Positions 8,733 to 22,175 of a stretch of 22,175 nucleotides of DNA are shown here, one piece after another. Source of the DNA: a virus; the IMG/VR virus record IMGVR_UViG_3300029989_000165, positions 1-22,175 of that record, one strand, 5' to 3'. Below the pieces are notes generated by a model. The model had not been told where the DNA came from. It did not search any database and worked only from the letters and a program-made list of their open reading frames with translations. The position numbers were made by a program, and so were the translations under genes. Each line of letters opens with the position of its first letter. Positions within the stretch are counted from its first letter, which is position 1.

Positions 8733-9316
8733 TTGCGTCCACGCGAACGGACGTAAACCTAACCGGCGCGTATGGCCAAGACGGCGTTGCGTTTGACGGG
8801 CTCAACCTGACCGAACACGACGGCCGCGAATATTCGACGCTTCTAAAAATCTCGCATTGCTGCAACGTCTCGGGGGAAGGGTTAAACATTCCCCAGGGCA
8901 ACGAAAACGCGGTTGATATTGACGTTTGCGAGGACGTAGCCCTTAGCGGCGAGTTCGGCACGGCCGGCGCAACGTGTGACCAAGTTTTAACCGTGAAGGG
9001 CGGTTGCCGGCGGGTTCAAGTTGTCGGCACCGTTCACACCCTCAAGACGCGCCGGCTAGCCCACGTCCAAGTTGGGAATTGGATGGACCAAAGTTACGAC
9101 CTCACCCGCGACGTGACGCTTGACCTCCAACGCGCGGACGGCGGGCCGGTCCTTGTGGCCATCGGTTGGGCCGTGCCGTTTTCGGTCAAGCTGCGGGGCT
9201 CGTGCAAGTACCTCGTTTGGGAATCGGTGAAGTTGAAAGCCTATGTCCTCGCCAAATTCGCCGTACGGGCTGTTCTGCGCATCCCCAAGGGCACAAAAGG
9301 GCCGGCTTGGCTCTAA
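8729..9316 (+). CDS. Beta-helix-like phage protein, last gene of the tail block
   Basis: The product is 195 aa. Residues about 8-155 contain repeated short strands separated by glycines and polar turns (VNLTGAYG, LLKISHCCNVSGEGL, VDIDVCEDVALSGEF, VLTVKGGCRRVQVVGTV, HVQVG, VTLDLQ). This is the pattern of a right-handed parallel beta-helix, and several Cys residues recur at similar strand positions. The C-terminus is basic and more hydrophobic (KAYVLAKFAVRAVLRIPKG) and may be an anchor. Beta-helix proteins in this location are usually spike or fibre parts; no catalytic motif is visible. The gene starts within the previous stop (ATGA). Its own stop overlaps that of the oppositely directed polymerase gene by four bases. 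Confidence 0.65.
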   Translation: MIASTRTDVNLTGAYGQDGVAFDGLNLTEHDGREYSTLLKISHCCNVSGEGLNIPQGNENAVDIDVCEDVALSGEFGTAGATCDQVLTVKGGCRRVQVVGTVHTLKTRRLAHVQVGNWMDQSYDLTRDVTLDLQRADGGPVLVAIGWAVPFSVKLRGSCKYLVWESVKLKAYVLAKFAVRAVLRIPKGTKGPAWL

Positions 9317-11601
9317 GTGGCTCCAATTTCCCCGAGCGTCTTAAACGCCTCGCGTTCGTAATACTCGTAATCCAAGTCCTCGGGTAGCTGCGCCGGTAGG
9401 TCCATGCACGGCCGCGCGCCGTCCGTTTCAGCGACCTTTTTGCCGGACAAGGCATAAATGATGCACCCGGTTTCACCCCGGCCATAATACCAACGCACGG
9501 CCTTGCCCAGGTAAACCCCGTCCTTCACTGCCCCACCCCGGACGGTTCGGATTGAAAGGAACTTTCGCACGTCCGTTGCGCTGCGGATCGTCTCCGCAAT
9601 CGGCGTGCCCTTGGTCAGGTAGGCCGTGACGGCTTCAACGATAATTCCGCCGGTCGGGTTTTTCTTGAACCGTTCATATTTGTACTCGTCCGAAGCCCAC
9701 GGGTTGAAGTACGCGCCTTTTGTTTTGGTTTTCCCGTCCGCCTTCACGGCAATGTAATTGTTTACGTCGCGGCTGTAGATAGCCACATATTCGGCTTCCT
9801 CGGTCTTGAACCCGGTCGCGGCTTCCCAAGCGTCGAAAATGGCGAGCATGTCCGCGCGGCGATCCTTGGGGCATTTGATCGTCAAGCCGTCCGTGTTCGC
9901 GCTGCAAACCGTGATTCCCGCCAGTTCTAGGGCTTCCACGAGCATTAGAAGCGACAGTTGGCCGGTAATGGTGACCGTCATTAGAAGGTCCGGCGCGTAC
10001 AGCGTGGACCACTTGGAGCCGAGTTTGCCGAACGACCCGTTGACAACGATCTTGAGTGTTTCCGCTTCAACTTTGTTTTTGTTTTTCTTCGCCTCAAGAC
10101 GGCGCTGCACAATGGAACGGTAAACCTGCAAAAACGACGGCCCCAGGTGCAACGGGTACAGCTCCAAGTTTAGAATTATGCTCGGGTAATAGCTCGCAAC
10201 GTCCCGGTCAAAAATCTGCGTTTGGGCGTCCGCCTTGTGGCTAGCAACCTGTTCGTTGCTGTGTAGTCCGCCTATGCCGATCGTATAGGTTGCATCGGCA
10301 ATTTGAACTTGAAGGTTCCACGCTTTTCCGGTGGACGGATCAACGGGAAGTTCGACGTATCCCGATTCTGAAACAAAAAATTCCCAACCCTGAATTTGCA
10401 CCAAGAGGCGGTTCAGCATTGGCGTTTGAAACCGGATGAACGCGGGCGTTATGTAGTGGTAGCGCGTGCCTGGGGCAATCTGCGGCCGCTCGGGCTCGGC
10501 AAAGTTGATCCGCTGCAACTCGCCGTTAATAACCGCCTCGGCAATCTGCGCGTCTGACTTGCTGCGCAGGTCCATGCCGTAGCGTTCGGACATGGCTTGC
10601 CGCAATTCGATTTGCTCGCGCAGGTTGACGAAACAAAACGCGGTTGAGGTTAAGTCCTTCTTTAAACAATAGTGCCGGACAATCGTAATGTGGTCCTCAG
10701 TCAAAACCATGTCCTCGGGAAACGGCAGGTCTTGCATGTAAGGCGTGTGCAGTCGTCCGCCGTACAACTTCAACGATCCGTCTAACGGGCAAACTTCGAT
10801 CAAATCAATATGGTTGATGTTTAGTTTTTTGACCTTCGCGGATTTCAACACCTGCCAAGGCTTCGCCTGTTCGCCGATTATTTGGTTTGCGGCGAATTTG
10901 AGCTGTTCGCACGACCTACCCGCCAGCGCCAAGGCCAAAATCGGAAGGTCGAAAAAGTTGCCGTTGAACGTGACAATAAGGAAGTGTTCCAAAATCCACT
11001 TCAACCGCTCGCAATCAAACAACGTGACCCCCGGCCGCATTTCAAAATATGTCACCTTGCCCGTGACGACGGAGGTAAAGCCGGCGAGGAAATAGTTGCT
11101 GTAAACTTCCGTGTCGCAAATCAACGGTTCCTTGCCCATCGCGGCGGCAACGAGCCCGTCAACGGTGAACATGTCCGGCACGTATGCCCGCGCCTCGTCT
11201 AGCCCCGGCAAGTAATCCGGGTTGCGCCAAACAGGATCGGGCGGGACGCACTTCGGCACCGGCGGCTTGCGCACGCGCGGCACATCGAACCAAAAGCCGT
11301 CAAGCTGGGGCGGGAATTTTTCCAACGGTTCGCATTCGACCGTTTCCGTTACTTCGCCGGCATGAAGCATAATGTTACCCTCGGGGTTGATCCAAAGCGC
11401 GATTGTTTCTTTTTGCTTTTGGCACTTCTTCACCGCTCGCACGAACGCCTTGGCCTTGGGTGCAAATTCAAGGTCGCACTGTATTGGCGTTGTCGCTACG
11501 TCGCCATTAAACGCGGAGACTGTACGGCCGCGAATGACGAAATATTGACTTAGTTTTTTCGCGCCAACCTGGGGAAGGACGAGTTGCAGGGCGTCAAGCA
11601 T
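9313..11601 (-). CDS. Family B DNA polymerase with 3'-5' exonuclease and N-terminal clamp-like domain
   Basis: The product is 762 aa and is probably the replicative polymerase. From the start used here, residues 1-105 resemble one domain of a beta sliding clamp (helix LDALQLVLPQV, FNGDVATTP, and GNIMLHAGEVTETVECEPL before EKFPP). The exonuclease follows: exo I CDTE (Asp163), exo II FNGNFFDLP (about 212-220) and an exo III-like HYCLKKDL. Palm motif A is DRDVASYYPSII (465-476), motif B is KIVVNGSFGKLG (517-528) and motif C is ANTDG (568-572). In motif C, Asn replaces the first Asp of the usual DTD while the main catalytic Asp is kept. An in-frame ATG at 11640 adds 13 residues but lies across a terminator-like hairpin, so the ATG at 11601 is preferred. 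The gene is the last of the minus-strand block. Confidence 0.9.
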   Translation of the reverse strand: MLDALQLVLPQVGAKKLSQYFVIRGRTVSAFNGDVATTPIQCDLEFAPKAKAFVRAVKKCQKQKETIALWINPEGNIMLHAGEVTETVECEPLEKFPPQLDGFWFDVPRVRKPPVPKCVPPDPVWRNPDYLPGLDEARAYVPDMFTVDGLVAAAMGKEPLICDTEVYSNYFLAGFTSVVTGKVTYFEMRPGVTLFDCERLKWILEHFLIVTFNGNFFDLPILALALAGRSCEQLKFAANQIIGEQAKPWQVLKSAKVKKLNINHIDLIEVCPLDGSLKLYGGRLHTPYMQDLPFPEDMVLTEDHITIVRHYCLKKDLTSTAFCFVNLREQIELRQAMSERYGMDLRSKSDAQIAEAVINGELQRINFAEPERPQIAPGTRYHYITPAFIRFQTPMLNRLLVQIQGWEFFVSESGYVELPVDPSTGKAWNLQVQIADATYTIGIGGLHSNEQVASHKADAQTQIFDRDVASYYPSIILNLELYPLHLGPSFLQVYRSIVQRRLEAKKNKNKVEAETLKIVVNGSFGKLGSKWSTLYAPDLLMTVTITGQLSLLMLVEALELAGITVCSANTDGLTIKCPKDRRADMLAIFDAWEAATGFKTEEAEYVAIYSRDVNNYIAVKADGKTKTKGAYFNPWASDEYKYERFKKNPTGGIIVEAVTAYLTKGTPIAETIRSATDVRKFLSIRTVRGGAVKDGVYLGKAVRWYYGRGETGCIIYALSGKKVAETDGARPCMDLPAQLPEDLDYEYYEREAFKTLGEIGAT

Positions 11602-11605
11602 GGTG

Positions 11606-11638
11606 AAAAAGCCCCGGTCAGTCAGCGACCGCCGGGGC
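11606..11638 (-). terminator. Intrinsic terminator-like hairpin before the polymerase gene
   Basis: Read on the minus strand, GCCCCGG (11638-11632) can pair with CCGGGGC (11617-11611) over a 14-base loop, directly followed by TTTTT. An alternative fold pairs GCCCC with GGGGC and GGTC with GACC. The hairpin begins 17 bases after the stop of the Lys/Pro-rich gene and its T-run ends five bases before the polymerase ATG at 11601. It may end or attenuate the upstream transcript. Confidence 0.6.
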
Positions 11639-11654
11639 ATAGTTAAACAAACAG

Positions 11655-12599
11655 TTACTTTGTGACGGCGAACGGAAGGACGCCTTGGGACGGTTTGACC
11701 ACAACGGCCGGTTTCGGAATGAAGGGAGCGACGCCGGGGTTGCCGACAGGATTAGCGGCAGCGCCACCAACCGGCTTTGACAACAGCGGCTTCGCTGTGG
11801 GTTTCTTGCTGGGGATAGGCGGAAGGGCCGGGATTGTGGTCAAGGGGGGCTTCGGCGCGGGCTTCGGTTTTTCAGTGAACCCCGTGTATTTGCGCGGCCC
11901 GCCAGTGCAAGCGGCCTTGGTGCCGTCTTTTTTGATGCGACCGAACAGCCCGTTGAATTTCCGCCAGCGGTAGAAATGATTTGAAAAATTGGAGTAACCA
12001 ATTTGTTCGGCAGAGCAAGCAACTAACACCTCTTGTCGGGTCGCGGGCTTGGCTTTGACGACAACGCCGGTTTGTTTCGATTCTTCGGCCGCAAGTTGGG
12101 CTTTCTTGGCTGAAATCTCGTCCGCGATCTTCCAAACGCGATGGGTGATTTTCGGTTTGCCGTCCGTGTCCGTGGGTCTTGGGCGGGTAATGCCGTTTTG
12201 CTGAATCTTGGGCGAAGGGACGACAATTGGCTTGCCGCCAGCAATCGGGATTACAACGGCCGGCTTCTTGGCACCCACGAGCAAGGTCGGGGTTTGCGGA
12301 ACTGCCTTACCCGTGGGTTTGACAGCAACAACAGGCTTCGCGGGAACGACCGGTTTCGGGGCCGGGGTCACAACAACCGGCGGCTTGGTTGCAACAACTG
12401 GTTTCGCGACGGGTGGCTTTACCTCGGGTTTGATGACCACAGGCGCAGCGGGCTTGACCGCAACCAACGGCTTGACGACGGCGGGCTTTGTTTTGGCTTT
12501 GGCCTTGGGGGCTGGTTTTGAAACAACCTTTTTCGGGCTCGTCTTTGGAGCGGGTTTATTGACGGCTTTTTTGGCCGGCTTCTTTGTTTGTTTTTTCAT
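11655..12599 (-). CDS. Lys/Pro/Ala/Val-rich histone-H1-like protein with a central RWRKF domain
   Basis: The product is 314 aa. Residues 1-132 are a low-complexity basic tail of KP, KPA and KPVV repeats with hardly any acidic residues. Residues about 137-223 form a folded domain with NGITRPRP, RVWKIADEIS and FYRWRKFNG. I recall this pattern from small phage and plasmid proteins of unknown function, in which R-VW-IADEIS is followed by QY-RWRKF; a helical DNA-binding role is plausible. Residues about 240-314 are a second basic Pro-rich tail. The double-tailed design resembles histone H1-like or AlgP-like nucleoid proteins and suggests coating or compaction of phage DNA. The ATG at 12599 is chosen because the 55 residues before it overlap the helicase gene and look like its shadow. 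A terminator-like hairpin follows the stop. Confidence 0.75.
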   Translation of the reverse strand: MKKQTKKPAKKAVNKPAPKTSPKKVVSKPAPKAKAKTKPAVVKPLVAVKPAAPVVIKPEVKPPVAKPVVATKPPVVVTPAPKPVVPAKPVVAVKPTGKAVPQTPTLLVGAKKPAVVIPIAGGKPIVVPSPKIQQNGITRPRPTDTDGKPKITHRVWKIADEISAKKAQLAAEESKQTGVVVKAKPATRQEVLVACSAEQIGYSNFSNHFYRWRKFNGLFGRIKKDGTKAACTGGPRKYTGFTEKPKPAPKPPLTTIPALPPIPSKKPTAKPLLSKPVGGAAANPVGNPGVAPFIPKPAVVVKPSQGVLPFAVTK

Positions 12600-12640: not shown

Positions 12641-14365
12641 TTAGGCGTGAACGGGAACGAGGGTTCCAAAGGCCGTGCCGGAATAGTCGTAAGCCATGAT
12701 TTTGGGCTGTTTGCAGTTGACCCAAACGCGAATGTGCGACGGCCGTTGCAAGACCTCCAAGCAAGCCAACGCGGCGCTAATTGTGTCGGGCGGTTCTGTG
12801 TCCAAGTCGTCCGCAGCGTTACGCCACCAATCGCGCGCCTTCTTCGCCGCGTAGCCCTCATGTTCCAAGCAAATCCATTCAGAGAAACAGCGGAGCCCGG
12901 CGAAGTATTCAACTTTCAGCGACTCGGGCTTGCCGCTCAAATGGTGGGGCGTGTGCCGGCGATAGTTCACTGAATCGACTTTGAAAATCTCAACCAACGG
13001 CGCAGAGCCAACAATGAGCGCGTCCGTTGACGCTTCGGCTTCAAGGTTCACCTCGGGAGGCGGAAACTCTTCCCCGCACTTAATGCAGATTTGCGCGCGG
13101 GCATGATTCCATGTTGCGCAGTGGACGCAGAGGCGGACAGGCGCGCCGCGCTCTTCCTCCAACCCCTCGCCCTTTTTACGGCGGCGCTTCGGAATTACCG
13201 GGTCATTGATCGGACCGTTGCGGCGGGTGTTGCCGGCGAAGTCCAAAACCAAACAATCGGTTTTGCCAATTTCAACGCGGGTTCCCCGGCCGTACTTCTG
13301 AACATGGCGCGAGGCTGACGAGGTGGGGGCTAAATCAACAATGCAGTCAATCGCCTTGAAGTTGAAGCCGGTCGTAAACAAAACCGGGTTGACGAGGGCT
13401 TGCACCCGGCCGGCTTTGAAGTCGCAAACGGCCTTGTCGCGGACTGCGCCGGGCGTCTTGGAGTGGACTGCAACCGCGTTGACCCCGCAGGAATCCAACA
13501 TTGAAGCGACGTGTTCGCAGTGCCGGACGCCTGTGGTAAACACCAACCAATGCTTGCGGTCGTGGGCAAGTTGTATGGTTTCTTGAATACAAGCGTAAGT
13601 GATTTCGTCCTTGTCAACGGCCGCTTGCAACTGACCTTGGGCGAAGTCCCCGCCGATAATCTTGACCCCGGAAACGTCGATTTTCGTGCCGGTTTGTTTC
13701 GGTATCAGGTTGCACAAATAACCCTCGGCAATGAGACGGTTGAACGACTCCAAGCCGGTAATGTCGTAACAAATATCGGTGAACAGCGCGGGTTTAACTT
13801 TGCCGTCCCGCTCGGTTGGTTCGGTCAACAACCCTTGCCCCAGGCGGTACGGCGTCGCGGTCAGCCCAACGACTTTGACCTTGGGGTTAATCGCCCGCAG
13901 CTCGGCAATAAACGTCTCGTAATCAGTATCGTCTTGCGGGCTGACAAGGTGGCACTCGTCAATTAAAACAATGTCGATATGCCCGAACAACGAGCCCTTC
14001 CCAACAACCGATTTGATGCCGGCGAAAACGATGGGGCGAACCTCTTTGCGGTTGAGCCCTGCGGAGAAAATGCCAGCGGGCGCGGTTGGCCACAATTCCA
14101 ACAGCTCCGCGAAATTTTGGGCGATTAGTTCCTTTACATGGGTGGCCATGATAACGCGGGACGCGGGCCACTCGCGAAACATGCGTTTCAAAAACGCGGC
14201 AATGACGATGCTTTTGCCGGTTCCTGTTGGTAGGGCTGCAATCGGGTTTCCCGTGTAGCGCGAAAAGTAATCGTAAATCGACGCTACGCACTCGCTTTGA
14301 TACCAACGCAAAGCGAGTTCAGCCTTGACGGCTGGCGGTTGCAGTGTGTGCAAAAAACCGGTCAC
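12641..14365 (-). CDS. SF2 DEAD/DEAH-type helicase with zinc-finger-like insert
   Basis: With the start used here the protein is 574 aa. It carries motif Q-like LRWYQSECV, Walker A PTGTGKS (46-52), Walker B DECH (136-139), motif III LTATPYR (about 168-174) and motif VI QKYGRGTR (356-363). It is therefore a complete two-domain superfamily 2 ATPase. Four cysteines at 413, 416, 427 and 430 (CVHC and CIKC) form a likely zinc ribbon after the helicase core. The last 120 residues are unassigned and include a W/C-rich segment. SF2 helicases in phage replication blocks are thought to unwind branched or R-loop structures. The GTG at 14365 overlaps the previous stop as GTGA, the same arrangement as two other genes here; an ATG at 14410 would lie inside the nuclease gene. 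Confidence 0.88.
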   Translation of the reverse strand: MTGFLHTLQPPAVKAELALRWYQSECVASIYDYFSRYTGNPIAALPTGTGKSIVIAAFLKRMFREWPASRVIMATHVKELIAQNFAELLELWPTAPAGIFSAGLNRKEVRPIVFAGIKSVVGKGSLFGHIDIVLIDECHLVSPQDDTDYETFIAELRAINPKVKVVGLTATPYRLGQGLLTEPTERDGKVKPALFTDICYDITGLESFNRLIAEGYLCNLIPKQTGTKIDVSGVKIIGGDFAQGQLQAAVDKDEITYACIQETIQLAHDRKHWLVFTTGVRHCEHVASMLDSCGVNAVAVHSKTPGAVRDKAVCDFKAGRVQALVNPVLFTTGFNFKAIDCIVDLAPTSSASRHVQKYGRGTRVEIGKTDCLVLDFAGNTRRNGPINDPVIPKRRRKKGEGLEEERGAPVRLCVHCATWNHARAQICIKCGEEFPPPEVNLEAEASTDALIVGSAPLVEIFKVDSVNYRRHTPHHLSGKPESLKVEYFAGLRCFSEWICLEHEGYAAKKARDWWRNAADDLDTEPPDTISAALACLEVLQRPSHIRVWVNCKQPKIMAYDYSGTAFGTLVPVHA

Positions 14366-15222
14366 GGTTGGACGCCTTGAAGCTTTGGGTTGACCTGATA
14401 CGAGCCGCACGCCGCGCGCTGCGCCTTATCGTCAAGATTGAGCTGGCGAAGACCGCAGACCCAAAGGCCGTTGGCCCCAGGGCGAGCGAACGAACAGGTC
14501 CGGCAATTGCGATCCGGCACAACATCGCCGAAGTGGCAAAGGCGGTTGCAGTCGCAAAATTTGCAGCCGAAGCCGCCGGGGCTGTTGCCGATCCGTTCGG
14601 GCGGTTCGTTCGCGTAAATAATCGTCCCGGCCCGCGCAAGGGCGGTCTTGGCAACCTCCGCGTCGTACCGAACCAATTCAAGGTGCAACTCGTCCGTGTC
14701 TTTGTTTACCGCCATGTAGAGAGCGACCGGGAGCCCCATTTTGTGCATATAAATTTGCATCTGAATGAAGTGCTCCCATTTCGACCCCATGACCCCGCTT
14801 TCAACGAGTTTGGCGAAGCTCTTTGAACCGTGCGTTTTGAACTCGGTCAGAAAGGCGGTGCCTGGGGGCAGGTCGGGAAGTCCCCGCGCTACGCCGTCCA
14901 ACGATCCGCCAAAGTGCCCGTCATGGTCGGAAATCCGCCACTGTTTGCCGGGAGTCAACGCGGTAACGTCGTGCTCCCAAACCTCGCAACCAATCGAACG
15001 AAGGAAACCCACAAAGCGGGCTTCCTCCAACTGACCACGTTCAAACAGGCGCAAGAGTGCGGCGGGGTGTTTTTTCAGAACAGCCCAACGAAACAAATAC
15101 CAAAGTTCACGAGCGCATTTTTTGCCGATGACGGACGCCCCCAGGTGCGAGCGGTGCGAACTTTCTTGTTTCGCTTCAATGTAGCTATTGATAGCGGCGA
15201 GGGTGAGAGTTGCGGGAGTCAC
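14362..15222 (-). CDS. PD-(D/E)XK nuclease, Cas4/RecB-like with Fe-S-type cysteines
   Basis: The product is 286 aa. The nuclease core shows GSLDGVA (Asp109), LTEFKTHG (Glu127, Lys129) and the following QMQIYMH helix (154-160), which is motif Q-x-Q-x-Y of the RecB/Cas4 group. An early cysteine (Cys36 in KKCARELWYL) and three or more late cysteines (Cys220, 223, 225, 229) match the arrangement that holds a 4Fe-4S cluster in Cas4/AddB-type enzymes. A second CxxC (240, 243) is extra. The likely role is processing of DNA ends for recombination with the Sak4-like ATPase and DUF669 protein. The GTG at 15222 overlaps the preceding stop as GTGA. The ATG at 15318 would overlap the small upstream gene by 100 bases. 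Confidence 0.85.
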   Translation of the reverse strand: MTPATLTLAAINSYIEAKQESSHRSHLGASVIGKKCARELWYLFRWAVLKKHPAALLRLFERGQLEEARFVGFLRSIGCEVWEHDVTALTPGKQWRISDHDGHFGGSLDGVARGLPDLPPGTAFLTEFKTHGSKSFAKLVESGVMGSKWEHFIQMQIYMHKMGLPVALYMAVNKDTDELHLELVRYDAEVAKTALARAGTIIYANEPPERIGNSPGGFGCKFCDCNRLCHFGDVVPDRNCRTCSFARPGANGLWVCGLRQLNLDDKAQRAACGSYQVNPKLQGVQP

Positions 15223-15443
15223 TTTTTGGCCGTCTCCTTTAGTTCGGCGAGCGGTTCCGGGTCTTGAATAATCGCCTGTTCGGCGAGGTCTTGGGCGGGC
15301 TTCTTCAAATCCAAACATTCGATAAGCCGAGCTTCGGAAATGTGGTTTTTGATTTGCGCGGCCATGACGGGGTCACGGTCGATTAGGACGGCAATTTTAA
15401 TTGCCAAGTCGGACGAGGTTGTTTGTTGGCTGTCGAATTTCAT
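15219..15443 (-). CDS. Small acidic/helical hypothetical protein
   Basis: This 74-aa protein is not recognised. It is predicted to be helical, with a central AVLIDRDPVMAAQIKNHISEA segment and a charged C-terminus (EPLAELKETAKK). There are no cysteines, signal peptide or membrane segment. The ATG at 15443 follows CAATCAACCAAC, an A/C-rich leader without a Shine-Dalgarno sequence. The stop overlaps the nuclease start as GTGA, so translation of the two is probably coupled. The gene is the first after the inverted-repeat element, which could control the nuclease-helicase part of the block. Confidence 0.65.
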   Translation of the reverse strand: MKFDSQQTTSSDLAIKIAVLIDRDPVMAAQIKNHISEARLIECLDLKKPAQDLAEQAIIQDPEPLAELKETAKK

Positions 15444-19081: not shown

Positions 19082-21483
19082 TATTACAGAACATCCCGCA
19101 CGAGCTGCGCGCCCTAAATCAGTGGGTAGCGGCCGGAACCAACAAGCACCCTCTAAACCCGCGAACGGGTCAGCCCGCTAGCGTCACGGACCCCGCAACC
19201 TGGGGGACATTTGAAGAAGCAAAAAACGCCGGATATAGCCACATTGGTTTTGTTCTCTCTGCGTCCGATCCGTATTGCATCGTTGACCTAGACGACCCCG
19301 CGACGATCAAAGTTGACGGCGTCATTGTTCCGAACCCGGACGCTGAACAGGTCGCACGCATCGGCGAACGACACACACGCATTTTGGGGGCATTTGAAGC
19401 TTACGCCGAACTCTCACAGAGCGGCACAGGCGTTCACATTATTTGCAGGGGCAGCGTTCCGCATGGTGTGCGCCGCGACAAAGTAGAAGTGTATTCGGAT
19501 TCCCGTTACATGATTTGTACGGGGAACATAATTAAAAACCTCCCCATTACCGAACAACAGCCGCTTTTGACGATGCTGTTCGACGAAATGAGCCAAGGCG
19601 CGTTGCCGGTCGCGGAGCTGCAACAGGTCGAAAGTCATTTGACCGATGACGATTTGTTTCAAATGGCGAGCACGGCGGCGAACTGCGAAAAGTTCTTGAA
19701 GCTGTGGCGAGGCGAATGGCAGGGCGTCCCCGAGTGGCCTTCACAGAGCGAAGCGGACTTTGCGTTGCTGTCCATGCTCGGGTTCTACTCGCCCGACAAT
19801 GAGCAAGTCCGGCGCGTGTTCCGCTGGTCAGCCCTGGGGCAGCGTGAGAAGGCAACGAAGAACGACCGTTACCTAAATTACGCGCTTACCAAGATTCGGG
19901 CCAAGACTCCCCCACCCGTTGATTTCTCTGCCCTGTTGGCGCGCGGATCGGCCCTTGTGCCCAACGTTGCGACCACAGCCAAGCCACCAATCCCCACTTA
20001 TGCACTTAACCAAACAACAAATAGAAATAGCGAACCAACTAGGGCACTTGAAGAGCCTGCAACGGTTGGACTTGAAATTTATTCGCCCGGCTCAACAGAG
20101 AATCAAACAACGGAGGAAAGAGATTGCGGAATTGAGGGAGAAGCTAGTTCAAACGTTCCAACTGCCGACCTCCCGCCGGGCTTTGTCGGGGAGCTAGCAA
20201 GCTACATTCACAGCTCCGCAATCCGCCCCGTCCCTGAAATCGCGCTGTGTGCATCGCTCGCCCTTACGGCCGGCGTCGTGGGTCGCTCGTTCAATATCTC
20301 GGGCACCGGGCTAAACCAATACCTCTTGGTTCTCGCAAAGACTGGCAGCGGCAAGGAAGGCGCAGCGACTGGCATTGACGCTATGGTTTCAGCCGCTCGC
20401 GCAACCGTCCCCATGATTGACGAGTTTGTTGGCCCCGGTGCGTTCGCGTCCGGTCAAGCGTTGGTTCGGGTTTTGGACAAGAACCCTTGTTTTGTTTCAG
20501 TCCTTGGCGAGTTCGGTTTGACGCTGAACGCCATGTGTTCGCCGAACGCCAACGGCGCGCAAATTATGCTTAAAAAAGTCCTCTTGGATATTTACGCCAA
20601 GAGCGGCTTCAGCAAGGTTCTCCGCTCGTCTGTTTATTCAGAGAGCGAAAAGAATACGAAGGCGATTCAAGCGCCCAACGTTACGATCTTCGGCGAGTCG
20701 AACCCCGAAAAGTTTTACGAGGGTTTGGACTCGGGCATTATTGCGGAAGGTCTGTTGCCCCGGTTCTCAATCTTTGAATACACCGGCCCGCGCCCTGACA
20801 CAAACCCCAACGCCTTCGCGCCGCCGCCTGACAGCCTTGTGCGCTTCTTTGGCGGGCTTGCGGCTGTGGCTATGGGTGCGCAGCAAAACCGCGTTTGCAG
20901 CCCCGTACAGCAAGACAGCGACGCGCTGAAACTCTTACGTGAGTTCGACCGCTACACGACGGACGAAATCAACAAATCACCAAACGACATATCTAAACAA
21001 CTGTGGAACCGCGCGCATTTGAAGGCGCTGAAAATGTCCGCTTTGATCGCCGTTGGCTGCAACCCACACCAACCAATAATAAACAAACGCTGCGCAGATT
21101 GGGCGATTGATTGTGTGCGAACTGACGTGTCCCGCCTGTTAAACAAATTTGAAAGCGGGGAAATTGGTTCGGGCGACGTGCGCCTTGAATTGGACGTGCG
21201 CAGGGCAATCACGGCTTACCTGAAAATGTCGGCAGTTGACCGCAGGGGCTACGGATGCCCCGACAAAATGGCCACATTGCAATTGATACCATTTCACTAT
21301 CTGCGCCGCCGGCTGCGTCTGTTGGTGGCATTCAAGACAGACAGGCGGGGCGCAAACAACGCCATGAACCAAACGCTTACCGCAATGGTGGACGGTGAAG
21401 TTTTGGTTCGCCTCAACCCAATGCAGGCGCGCGAGCAATGCGGCACCAACAGCCCCGTCTATGGGCTCGGGCCGGCTTGGTAA
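19078..21483 (+). CDS. Primase-helicase: AEP/NrS-1-like primase plus DUF3987-like ATPase
   Basis: The product is 801 aa. The N-terminal 1-160 resemble the archaeo-eukaryotic primase fold of the NrS-1 polymerase group: IGFVLSASDPYCIVDLDDP with Asp70/Asp72, SQSGTGVHI with His120, and VEVYSDSRYMICTGN. Residues about 185-280 form a helical linker domain (WSALGQREKATKNDRY) usual in these proteins. A Ser/Thr/Asn/Glu-rich linker at about 300-363 contains a nested ORF. Residues 365-690 resemble DUF3987, with a P-loop-like AKTGSGKEG (420-428) that has Ala for the first Gly and Glu for Ser/Thr. GEFGLTLNAM and an APNVTIFGESNPEKFYEGL segment follow. The likely role is priming plus unwinding at the phage fork. 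The GTG at 19078 is set by the GTGA overlap with the regulator stop. Confidence 0.87.
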   Translation: MILQNIPHELRALNQWVAAGTNKHPLNPRTGQPASVTDPATWGTFEEAKNAGYSHIGFVLSASDPYCIVDLDDPATIKVDGVIVPNPDAEQVARIGERHTRILGAFEAYAELSQSGTGVHIICRGSVPHGVRRDKVEVYSDSRYMICTGNIIKNLPITEQQPLLTMLFDEMSQGALPVAELQQVESHLTDDDLFQMASTAANCEKFLKLWRGEWQGVPEWPSQSEADFALLSMLGFYSPDNEQVRRVFRWSALGQREKATKNDRYLNYALTKIRAKTPPPVDFSALLARGSALVPNVATTAKPPIPTYALNQTTNRNSEPTRALEEPATVGLEIYSPGSTENQTTEERDCGIEGEASSNVPTADLPPGFVGELASYIHSSAIRPVPEIALCASLALTAGVVGRSFNISGTGLNQYLLVLAKTGSGKEGAATGIDAMVSAARATVPMIDEFVGPGAFASGQALVRVLDKNPCFVSVLGEFGLTLNAMCSPNANGAQIMLKKVLLDIYAKSGFSKVLRSSVYSESEKNTKAIQAPNVTIFGESNPEKFYEGLDSGIIAEGLLPRFSIFEYTGPRPDTNPNAFAPPPDSLVRFFGGLAAVAMGAQQNRVCSPVQQDSDALKLLREFDRYTTDEINKSPNDISKQLWNRAHLKALKMSALIAVGCNPHQPIINKRCADWAIDCVRTDVSRLLNKFESGEIGSGDVRLELDVRRAITAYLKMSAVDRRGYGCPDKMATLQLIPFHYLRRRLRLLVAFKTDRRGANNAMNQTLTAMVDGEVLVRLNPMQAREQCGTNSPVYGLGPAW
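20000..20197 (+). CDS. Candidate nested 65-aa helical basic protein in the +1 frame of the primase-helicase gene
   Basis: The ATG at 20000 opens 65 codons entirely inside the primase-helicase gene, one base out of frame. The product is helical and charged (TKQQIEIANQLGHLKSLQRL, then RIKQRRKEIAELREKL), with few turns, and looks more like a folded or coiled-coil protein than the disordered peptide of the main frame at the same place. By hand count, third positions between about 20003 and 20164 are near 54% G+C in this frame but about 26% in the main frame, whereas the main frame is strongly G+C-rich at third positions on both sides. There is no Shine-Dalgarno sequence, but that is normal here. 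It could be an overprinted gene, or a trace of a compensated double frameshift. Confidence 0.5.
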   Translation: MHLTKQQIEIANQLGHLKSLQRLDLKFIRPAQQRIKQRRKEIAELREKLVQTFQLPTSRRALSGS

Positions 21484-21497
21484 CTTTTAAACAACCA

Positions 21498-22175
21498 ATG
21501 AACTACTACAACGAAAACGACCCCAAGGCGGCTGCGTGGCTGCGCACCCTTATAGGGGGGGGTCTGATTGCTAACGGATACGTGGACGAACGCTCAATTA
21601 CCGATGTCAAACCAACAGAACTACACAGTTTCGCACAGTGTCATTTTTTCGCTGGAATTGGAGGATGGCCCCTTTCTCTTATTCTTGCCGGGTGGCCTTC
21701 CGATAGACGAGTATGGACAGGCTCTTGTCCCTGCCAACCGTTTAGCGCCGCAGGAAAGCAACTTGGAGAACAAGACGCCCGGCACTTATGGCCCGTCTTC
21801 CGCGACCTCATTGCAGAGTGTCAGCCTCCAACAGTCTTTGGCGAACAGGTTGCAAGCAAAGCTGGGCGAAATTGGCTCGTTGGAGTACGCGCTAATTTGG
21901 AAGGAATGGGCTATGCTGTCGGGGCCGCCGATTTGTGCGCTGCGGGCGTCGGGGCACCGCACATTAGACAAAGACTTTATTGGGTGGCCAACGCCCGATT
22001 CCAGCAAGCGGGGCGGTGCGCAAGACCCGATCAAACGCAGAGCGGCGGGGCACCAAGTGAATTTGCAGGACGCGGCATTGTTGGCGGGTTGGCGTTCCCC
22101 CAGGGCGTGCGATTACAAGGGCGGAGTGACAGGGGCGAACGGTTCGACTCGCATCCCGACAGATTATTTTCTGAC
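21498..22175 (+). CDS. dcm: Cytosine-C5 DNA methyltransferase, Dcm-like (3' end beyond the window)
   Basis: 226 codons are visible and the frame is open at the right edge. Motif I FAGIGG (51-56) binds S-adenosylmethionine; motif IV GSCPCQPFS has the catalytic Cys79; motif VI appears as FGEQV (114-118), with Gln in place of the usual Asn of ENV; and motif VIII is QRLYWV (158-163). The target-recognition region and motifs IX-X lie outside. The enzyme would methylate cytosines in phage DNA, probably to evade host restriction. The N-terminal GYVDERSITDVKPTELHSF lead-in is typical of phage versions. The ATG at 21498 is preceded by TAAACAACCA, 14 bases after the primase-helicase stop. An eight-G tract lies at 21555-21562. 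A second long open frame overlaps almost the whole gene. Confidence 0.9.
   Translation, partial: MNYYNENDPKAAAWLRTLIGGGLIANGYVDERSITDVKPTELHSFAQCHFFAGIGGWPLSLILAGWPSDRRVWTGSCPCQPFSAAGKQLGEQDARHLWPVFRDLIAECQPPTVFGEQVASKAGRNWLVGVRANLEGMGYAVGAADLCAAGVGAPHIRQRLYWVANARFQQAGRCARPDQTQSGGAPSEFAGRGIVGGLAFPQGVRLQGRSDRGERFDSHPDRLFSD
21555..21562 (+). repeat. G8 homopolymer near the 5' end of the methyltransferase gene
   Basis: Eight consecutive G residues encode Gly-Gly-Gly at codons 20-22. Loss of one G leads to TGA within two codons and gain of one leads to TAA within a few codons, so slippage would switch the enzyme off. Confidence 0.7.
21604..22175 (+). CDS. Candidate second-frame protein overlapping the methyltransferase gene (3' end beyond window)
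   Basis: From the ATG at 21604, in the +1 frame relative to the methyltransferase, a frame stays open for at least 190 codons to the right edge. The product includes TYGPSSATSLQSVSLQQSLA, SLEYALIWKEWAMLSGPPIC, ALRASGHRTL, FIGWPTPDS, LLAGWRSPRACDYKGG and STRIPTDYFL. I recall very similar proteins next to or within phage dcm loci, with repeated GWPTP segments and an SPEYALTWK-WDMPSGPPICALRA block. This suggests the frame is conserved beyond this phage. It may be a real overlapping gene, the start of a gene extending past the methyltransferase, or a frame that looks conserved only because the methyltransferase is. The start is uncertain and the function unknown. Confidence 0.45.
   Translation, partial: MSNQQNYTVSHSVIFSLELEDGPFLLFLPGGLPIDEYGQALVPANRLAPQESNLENKTPGTYGPSSATSLQSVSLQQSLANRLQAKLGEIGSLEYALIWKEWAMLSGPPICALRASGHRTLDKDFIGWPTPDSSKRGGAQDPIKRRAAGHQVNLQDAALLAGWRSPRACDYKGGVTGANGSTRIPTDYFL

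Follow-up and report, generated by a model that had tools for sequence, protein, structure and literature searches.

The closest described counterparts of the locus studied here are the clamp and family B polymerase genes of the Queuovirinae and their relatives (CAjan, JG054, NP1; RHEph04, Iggy, Siara): the polymerases belong to the same family (about 43–54% identity), and the pair occupies the same gene place. In these phages the clamp is complete (about 320 aa) and separate, and the polymerase has its own start. By contrast, the window, as we call the whole stretch of DNA analyzed (an IMG/VR virus record of 22,175 bases from an uncultured phage, probably a genome fragment), holds domain I of a clamp only, in one open reading frame (ORF) with the polymerase; this domain is about 30–38% identical to domain I of the Queuovirinae-type clamps. 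A covalent joining of a clamp-like domain to a family B phage polymerase had been proposed from the sequence, and is borne out by tblastn, profile, structural model and Foldseek comparisons, which specify the domain as domain I of bacterial DnaN. The fused domain shares with bacterial DnaN the fold, the order of elements and the domain end (LPAADFPNL in DnaN, EPLEKFPP in the fusion), but is without domains II and III, the protein-binding cleft and the ring-interface arginines, and is too divergent for the Pfam family PF00712. A further comparison is offered by family A polymerases encoded next to the same clamp (Baskent_P4_1; L011, L022, L023), which have the same N-terminal G[LFM]FWED although the polymerase is unrelated and the clamp intact and separate. 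A sliding clamp is the ring that tethers a DNA polymerase to DNA; the one third of it left in the window looks like a ring that was lost or turned into something else; the fusion is a natural experiment on a phage giving up its ring clamp, and makes it testable whether a single clamp domain aids a polymerase.

Some 60 related phages among the matches listed have a gene for a complete clamp (about 320 aa) immediately before a phrog_1252-type polymerase. A separate clamp gene of about 320 codons precedes the polymerase gene in Siara, BUCT627, RHEph04, Iggy, CAjan, JG054, DoCa3 and MiCath, with two short ORFs separating the genes in Iggy. On profile and predicted structure, these free phage clamps are DnaN clamps: a profile of 24 of them matches DnaN chains in the PDB at E=5e-6, with 256 profile positions in register and collinear from domain I, and the AlphaFold model of one (L037; pLDDT 90) has three repeats and matches DnaN rings from E. 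coli and others at E of about 1e-16 to 1e-17 and TM 0.7–0.8 (E=4e-17 at TM 0.8). The clamp of Quinobequin-P09 (L271:2514-3468) is annotated as two ORFs, one of 251 aa and a short one. We rejected the 251-aa product as an intermediate: the remainder sits in the separate downstream ORF, and a frameshift or sequence error is likelier.

The fusion gene occupies the clamp/polymerase place of the relatives, behind exonuclease and helicase. It belongs to a minus-strand replication module comprising DUF7173, MazG, Sak4, a DUF669/ssDNA-binding-like protein, a Cas4-type exonuclease, a helicase, a K/P/A-rich protein and then the polymerase, past which, on the plus strand, comes a primase with an NrS-1-type domain. 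The protein between helicase and fusion gene (11655-12599, minus strand) has 314 aa, is rich in K, P, A and V, and matches phrog_18634 in part; an ORF truncated by the end of the window (21438-22175, plus strand) resembles, by eye, a DNA cytosine methyltransferase. As originally noted, no second clamp and no clamp loader is seen within this 22-kb fragment. Genomes of the phage's relatives measure about 41–64 kb, and more than half of its own genome probably lies outside the window. A complete second clamp elsewhere in that genome is possible; the map of Siara, read over 12–61 kb, shows no annotated clamp loader and no clamp other than the one beside the polymerase, so that an extra clamp in the unseen part is not expected.

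The polymerase ORF extends over 9313-11640 on the minus strand (775 aa). By homology the start is the ATG at 11601; the ATG farther upstream, at 11640, lies at the edge of a terminator-like hairpin (table 1). Only from residue 136 of 775 onward does the ORF match phrog_1252, the profile of its polymerase family (E=1.6e-199), so that the N-terminal part is extra to the polymerase; the view that the first 105 or so residues lie outside exonuclease and palm is thereby upheld. The columns of the catalytic exonuclease and polymerase motifs are invariant in the polymerase alignment, and the exonuclease/polymerase domains of phrog_1252 are present. We also considered, and rejected, that the polymerase might be translated on its own from an internal start close to the junction: an ATG is lacking there, and the GTG codons 107–115 are preceded by no convincing ribosome site.

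Table 1. Features of the fusion gene and its surroundings; positions are those of the window.
Feature	Position	Strand	Basis and remarks
Clamp domain I–DNA polymerase B fusion gene	9313..11601	-	ORF; 761 aa from ATG 11601; start aligned to Met1 of free clamps
Clamp domain I (residues 1-97)	11311..11601	-	tblastn/BLASTP to free clamps, best E 1e-15; AlphaFold pLDDT 80; Foldseek
Strand LHAGEVTETV (residues 79-88), equivalent of the DnaN basic strand at the domain I-III' ring interface	11338..11367	-	Alignment; basic residues lost
Junction and polymerase N-terminal tag GFWFDVP (residues 102-108)	11278..11298	-	Alignment; equivalent to relatives' G[LFM]FWxDxP
Family B polymerase with 3'-5' exonuclease (phrog_1252)	9316..11298	-	Motifs DTE, FDLP, DVASYYPS, NGSFGKLGS and SANTDG kept
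Terminator-like hairpin, directly upstream of start codon	11611..11638	-	Stem 11631-11615 by scan; longer stem 11638-11611 by eye, then TTTTT
DNA helicase, replication module	12641..14410	-	Synteny marker; in relatives too, upstream of clamp and polymerase
Cas4-domain exonuclease, replication module	14362..15318	-	Profile match

Residues 1–97 of the fusion are homologous to domain I of DnaN-type sliding clamps. With the first 130 residues (11601 frame) as query, tblastn gave matches in 65 phage records, which in almost every case cover residues 1 to about 90–103; the best of them (E down to 1e-9) bear the annotations processivity factor, DNA polymerase III beta subunit, and sliding or replicative clamp. 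The Pfam family DNA_pol3_beta (PF00712) gave no match to the fused domain, and misses the complete phage clamps too. Modeled alone with AlphaFold, from an input alignment that included free clamps and is thus not independent of the homology, the domain (pLDDT 80) has the element order of one DnaN repeat: a helix at 2–11, strands at 20–24 and 27–30 followed by FNG, and strands at 77–81 and 84–88 with IMLHAGE. The starting helix, the strand pair ending in FNG and the final strand named beforehand are all found there. In the Foldseek comparison that had been suggested for this model, every one of the top 50 matches in the PDB is to a beta clamp (probability 1.00, E about 0.005–0.02, TM(query) 0.54–0.71), and the best viral matches are phage clamps also. 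Chance resemblance is ruled out by these Foldseek and tblastn/BLASTP matches. Membership in the divergent clamp group found beside other polymerases (L053, L074 and others) was likewise rejected, the main group being matched far better, and so was an ordinary N-terminal domain of family B polymerases: related polymerases are without such a domain and have a separate clamp gene or none. The clamp profile covers positions 1–103 of 317 only, the remainder of the ORF being polymerase; instead of the three domains per protomer of a DnaN-type clamp, the fusion has one, domains II and III being absent together with their peptide-binding cleft and the partner face.

Domain I ends at about residue 97 (ECEPLEKFPP), and the residues that follow, QLDGFWFDVPRVRKPPVPKCVPPDPVWRNPDYLPGL, match, in the alignment, the entire N-terminus of polymerases encoded as separate proteins, e.g. 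RWDTTGLFWDDYVAPRVAKEKVKREPPEPIWLKPDYLPGL. What is missing, then, is clamp domains II and III together with the gene boundary, and the polymerase has lost nothing recognizable; the join is in frame, at the end of domain I. No second clamp–polymerase fusion was found among the 277 polymerase ORFs in the fetched loci (some of which overlap), and the window is the sole case. It should be noted that these loci were gathered by a few peptide patterns, that the counts hold among the matches listed, and that rarer fusions are possible. Within the loci examined and a limited literature search, this is the only natural case that we found of a replicative polymerase with a sliding-clamp domain covalently attached.

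Judged from alignments and trees, divergence has been far more rapid in the fused domain than in its own polymerase. The branch of the domain (1.53) is the longest of 48 (median 0.16), against 0.57 for the polymerase, and its identity to free clamps is about 0.33, whereas free pairs with equally similar polymerases (0.50–0.60) average 0.57–0.61. It retains 22 of the 40 conserved positions (55%), the lowest share of all rows and mostly core residues and turns; the share expected without selection at its branch length is, on a rough estimate, 24%. Since retention exceeds this neutral expectation, a pure relic is not certain, and some role of the domain may be under selection.

The ring interface of the E. 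coli clamp carries R103 and I305 and is stabilized by salt bridges (PMC4041429). In the alignment with E. coli DnaN (L272), the fusion has N, E and T at the equivalents of R96, R103 and R105, positions that are basic in 58/58, at least 26/58 and 50/58 of the free phage clamps. The strand IKSGKFKAF has a net charge of +1 to +3 in 41 of 42 free complete clamps versus −2 in the fusion, and the basic residues for pairing with domain III' across the interface (we take R103 and I305 to lie in domains I and III) are absent from it. The residue aligned with R24, which presumably touches DNA in E. coli DnaN, is K and still basic. Our reading is that the fused domain is folded but no longer has to serve in a ring.

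The truncated clamp was probably fused to the polymerase by an old in-frame deletion, and survives as a folded monomeric appendage or as a relic; this explanation draws on homology, predicted fold, synteny, the in-frame junction, accelerated divergence and the loss of interface charge. In the ancestor, as is common in the phage group, the polymerase gene would have been directly preceded by a gene for a complete DnaN-type clamp of three domains, to whose ring the polymerase would have attached by a short tag, G[LFM]FW, at its N-terminus. Loss of clamp domains II and III and of the intergenic gap by deletion would then have put domain I in frame with the polymerase, the N-terminus of which stayed intact. 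What is left of the clamp, domain I, is predicted to fold; its ring interface being lost, it most likely forms no ring. It may serve as a monomeric appendage with weak DNA or intramolecular contacts, or may alternatively be a relic that is hard to remove because it carries the start codon. That the junction is instead an assembly artifact, the true genome having an intact clamp and a separate polymerase, we consider quite improbable. Only one contig spans the junction: a second contig of the same virus from another metagenome (L006; 99.94% identical over 5138 bp) ends at residue 46 of the domain, about 160 bp short of it, and the junction 30-mer has no match elsewhere, in a scan that possibly left out the window's own record. 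Domain I of an intact clamp, however, would be expected to be about 57–60% identical to its relatives rather than the 33% or so found, and should retain the ring interface that is lost here; the already divergent residues 1–46 are confirmed by the second contig; and the join falls in frame at the domain end, with the adjoining tag changed as well. A compositional chimera was rejected too: codon composition is ordinary, and the GC3 of the fused domain (0.57) lies inside the range of other 96-codon blocks.

The original prediction had also suggested that the domain might oligomerize into a processivity ring or replace one, and the lost basic residues, the absence of domains II and III and the rapid divergence speak against this. 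Assembly into a ring, as a polymerase hexamer or with another clamp, is barely credible: a DnaN ring consists of six similar domains, and domain I has in principle two edge faces, but the interface strand has exchanged its basic residues for a net negative charge, the window holds no domain II/III partner, and six full-size polymerases on one ring would be sterically implausible. Somewhat less remote, though still unlikely, is a working monomeric clip on the duplex behind the polymerase, which would replace the ring and, being covalent, would need neither ring nor clamp loader. The retained fold core, the retention of conserved positions above the rough neutral expectation, the basic residue at the R24 position and the lack of another clamp in the window agree with such a clip; against it stand the rapid divergence and the span of one clamp domain, only about one-sixth of a ring, and any DNA binding by the domain is putative. 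If true, it would be a natural polymerase with a built-in clamp domain, processive without ring or loader.

The tag on which the deletion explanation calls was followed across the relatives. The loose pattern G[LFMIW][FLYW][WF] is present in 63 of 63 distinct polymerases beside the main clamp type versus 0 of 66 without a clamp in reach, and a stricter pattern ending in W, on a smaller set, in 46 of 47 beside a clamp versus 1 of 39 without, kinship being uncorrected in both counts. The window keeps the position, with a tag (GFWF) that fits the loose pattern but not the stricter one. Family A polymerases beside the same clamp family carry G[LFM]FW as well, by motif in L011, L015, L022 and L023 (family A, PF00476, being confirmed by Pfam in L011, L022 and L023) and by eye in Baskent_P4_1. 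The tag resembles the bacterial clamp-binding motif QL(S/D)LF (PMC9690074), and the N-terminal GLFW-like tag is probably a clamp-binding peptide; the comparison yields a likely clamp-recognition tag common to unrelated polymerases beside one clamp family.

Downstream of the clamp in L011, L015, L022, L023 and L004, family A polymerases share G[LFM]FWED with family B, and the tag seems to go with the clamp rather than with the polymerase. Two polymerases without an upstream clamp (L099, L109) have about 80 additional residues at the N-terminus (MAKYISSxDLA...), toward the end of which stands QFDLLGG or HFDLFSG; polymerases of this type may use the host clamp, this motif being close to QL(S/D)LF. 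The tag GLFW is present in L106, the 5' end of which is open. The polymerases beside the more divergent clamp group (L053, L056, L070, L071, L107, L108) are without GxFW, and several have MFFD or MFFE at the N-terminus.
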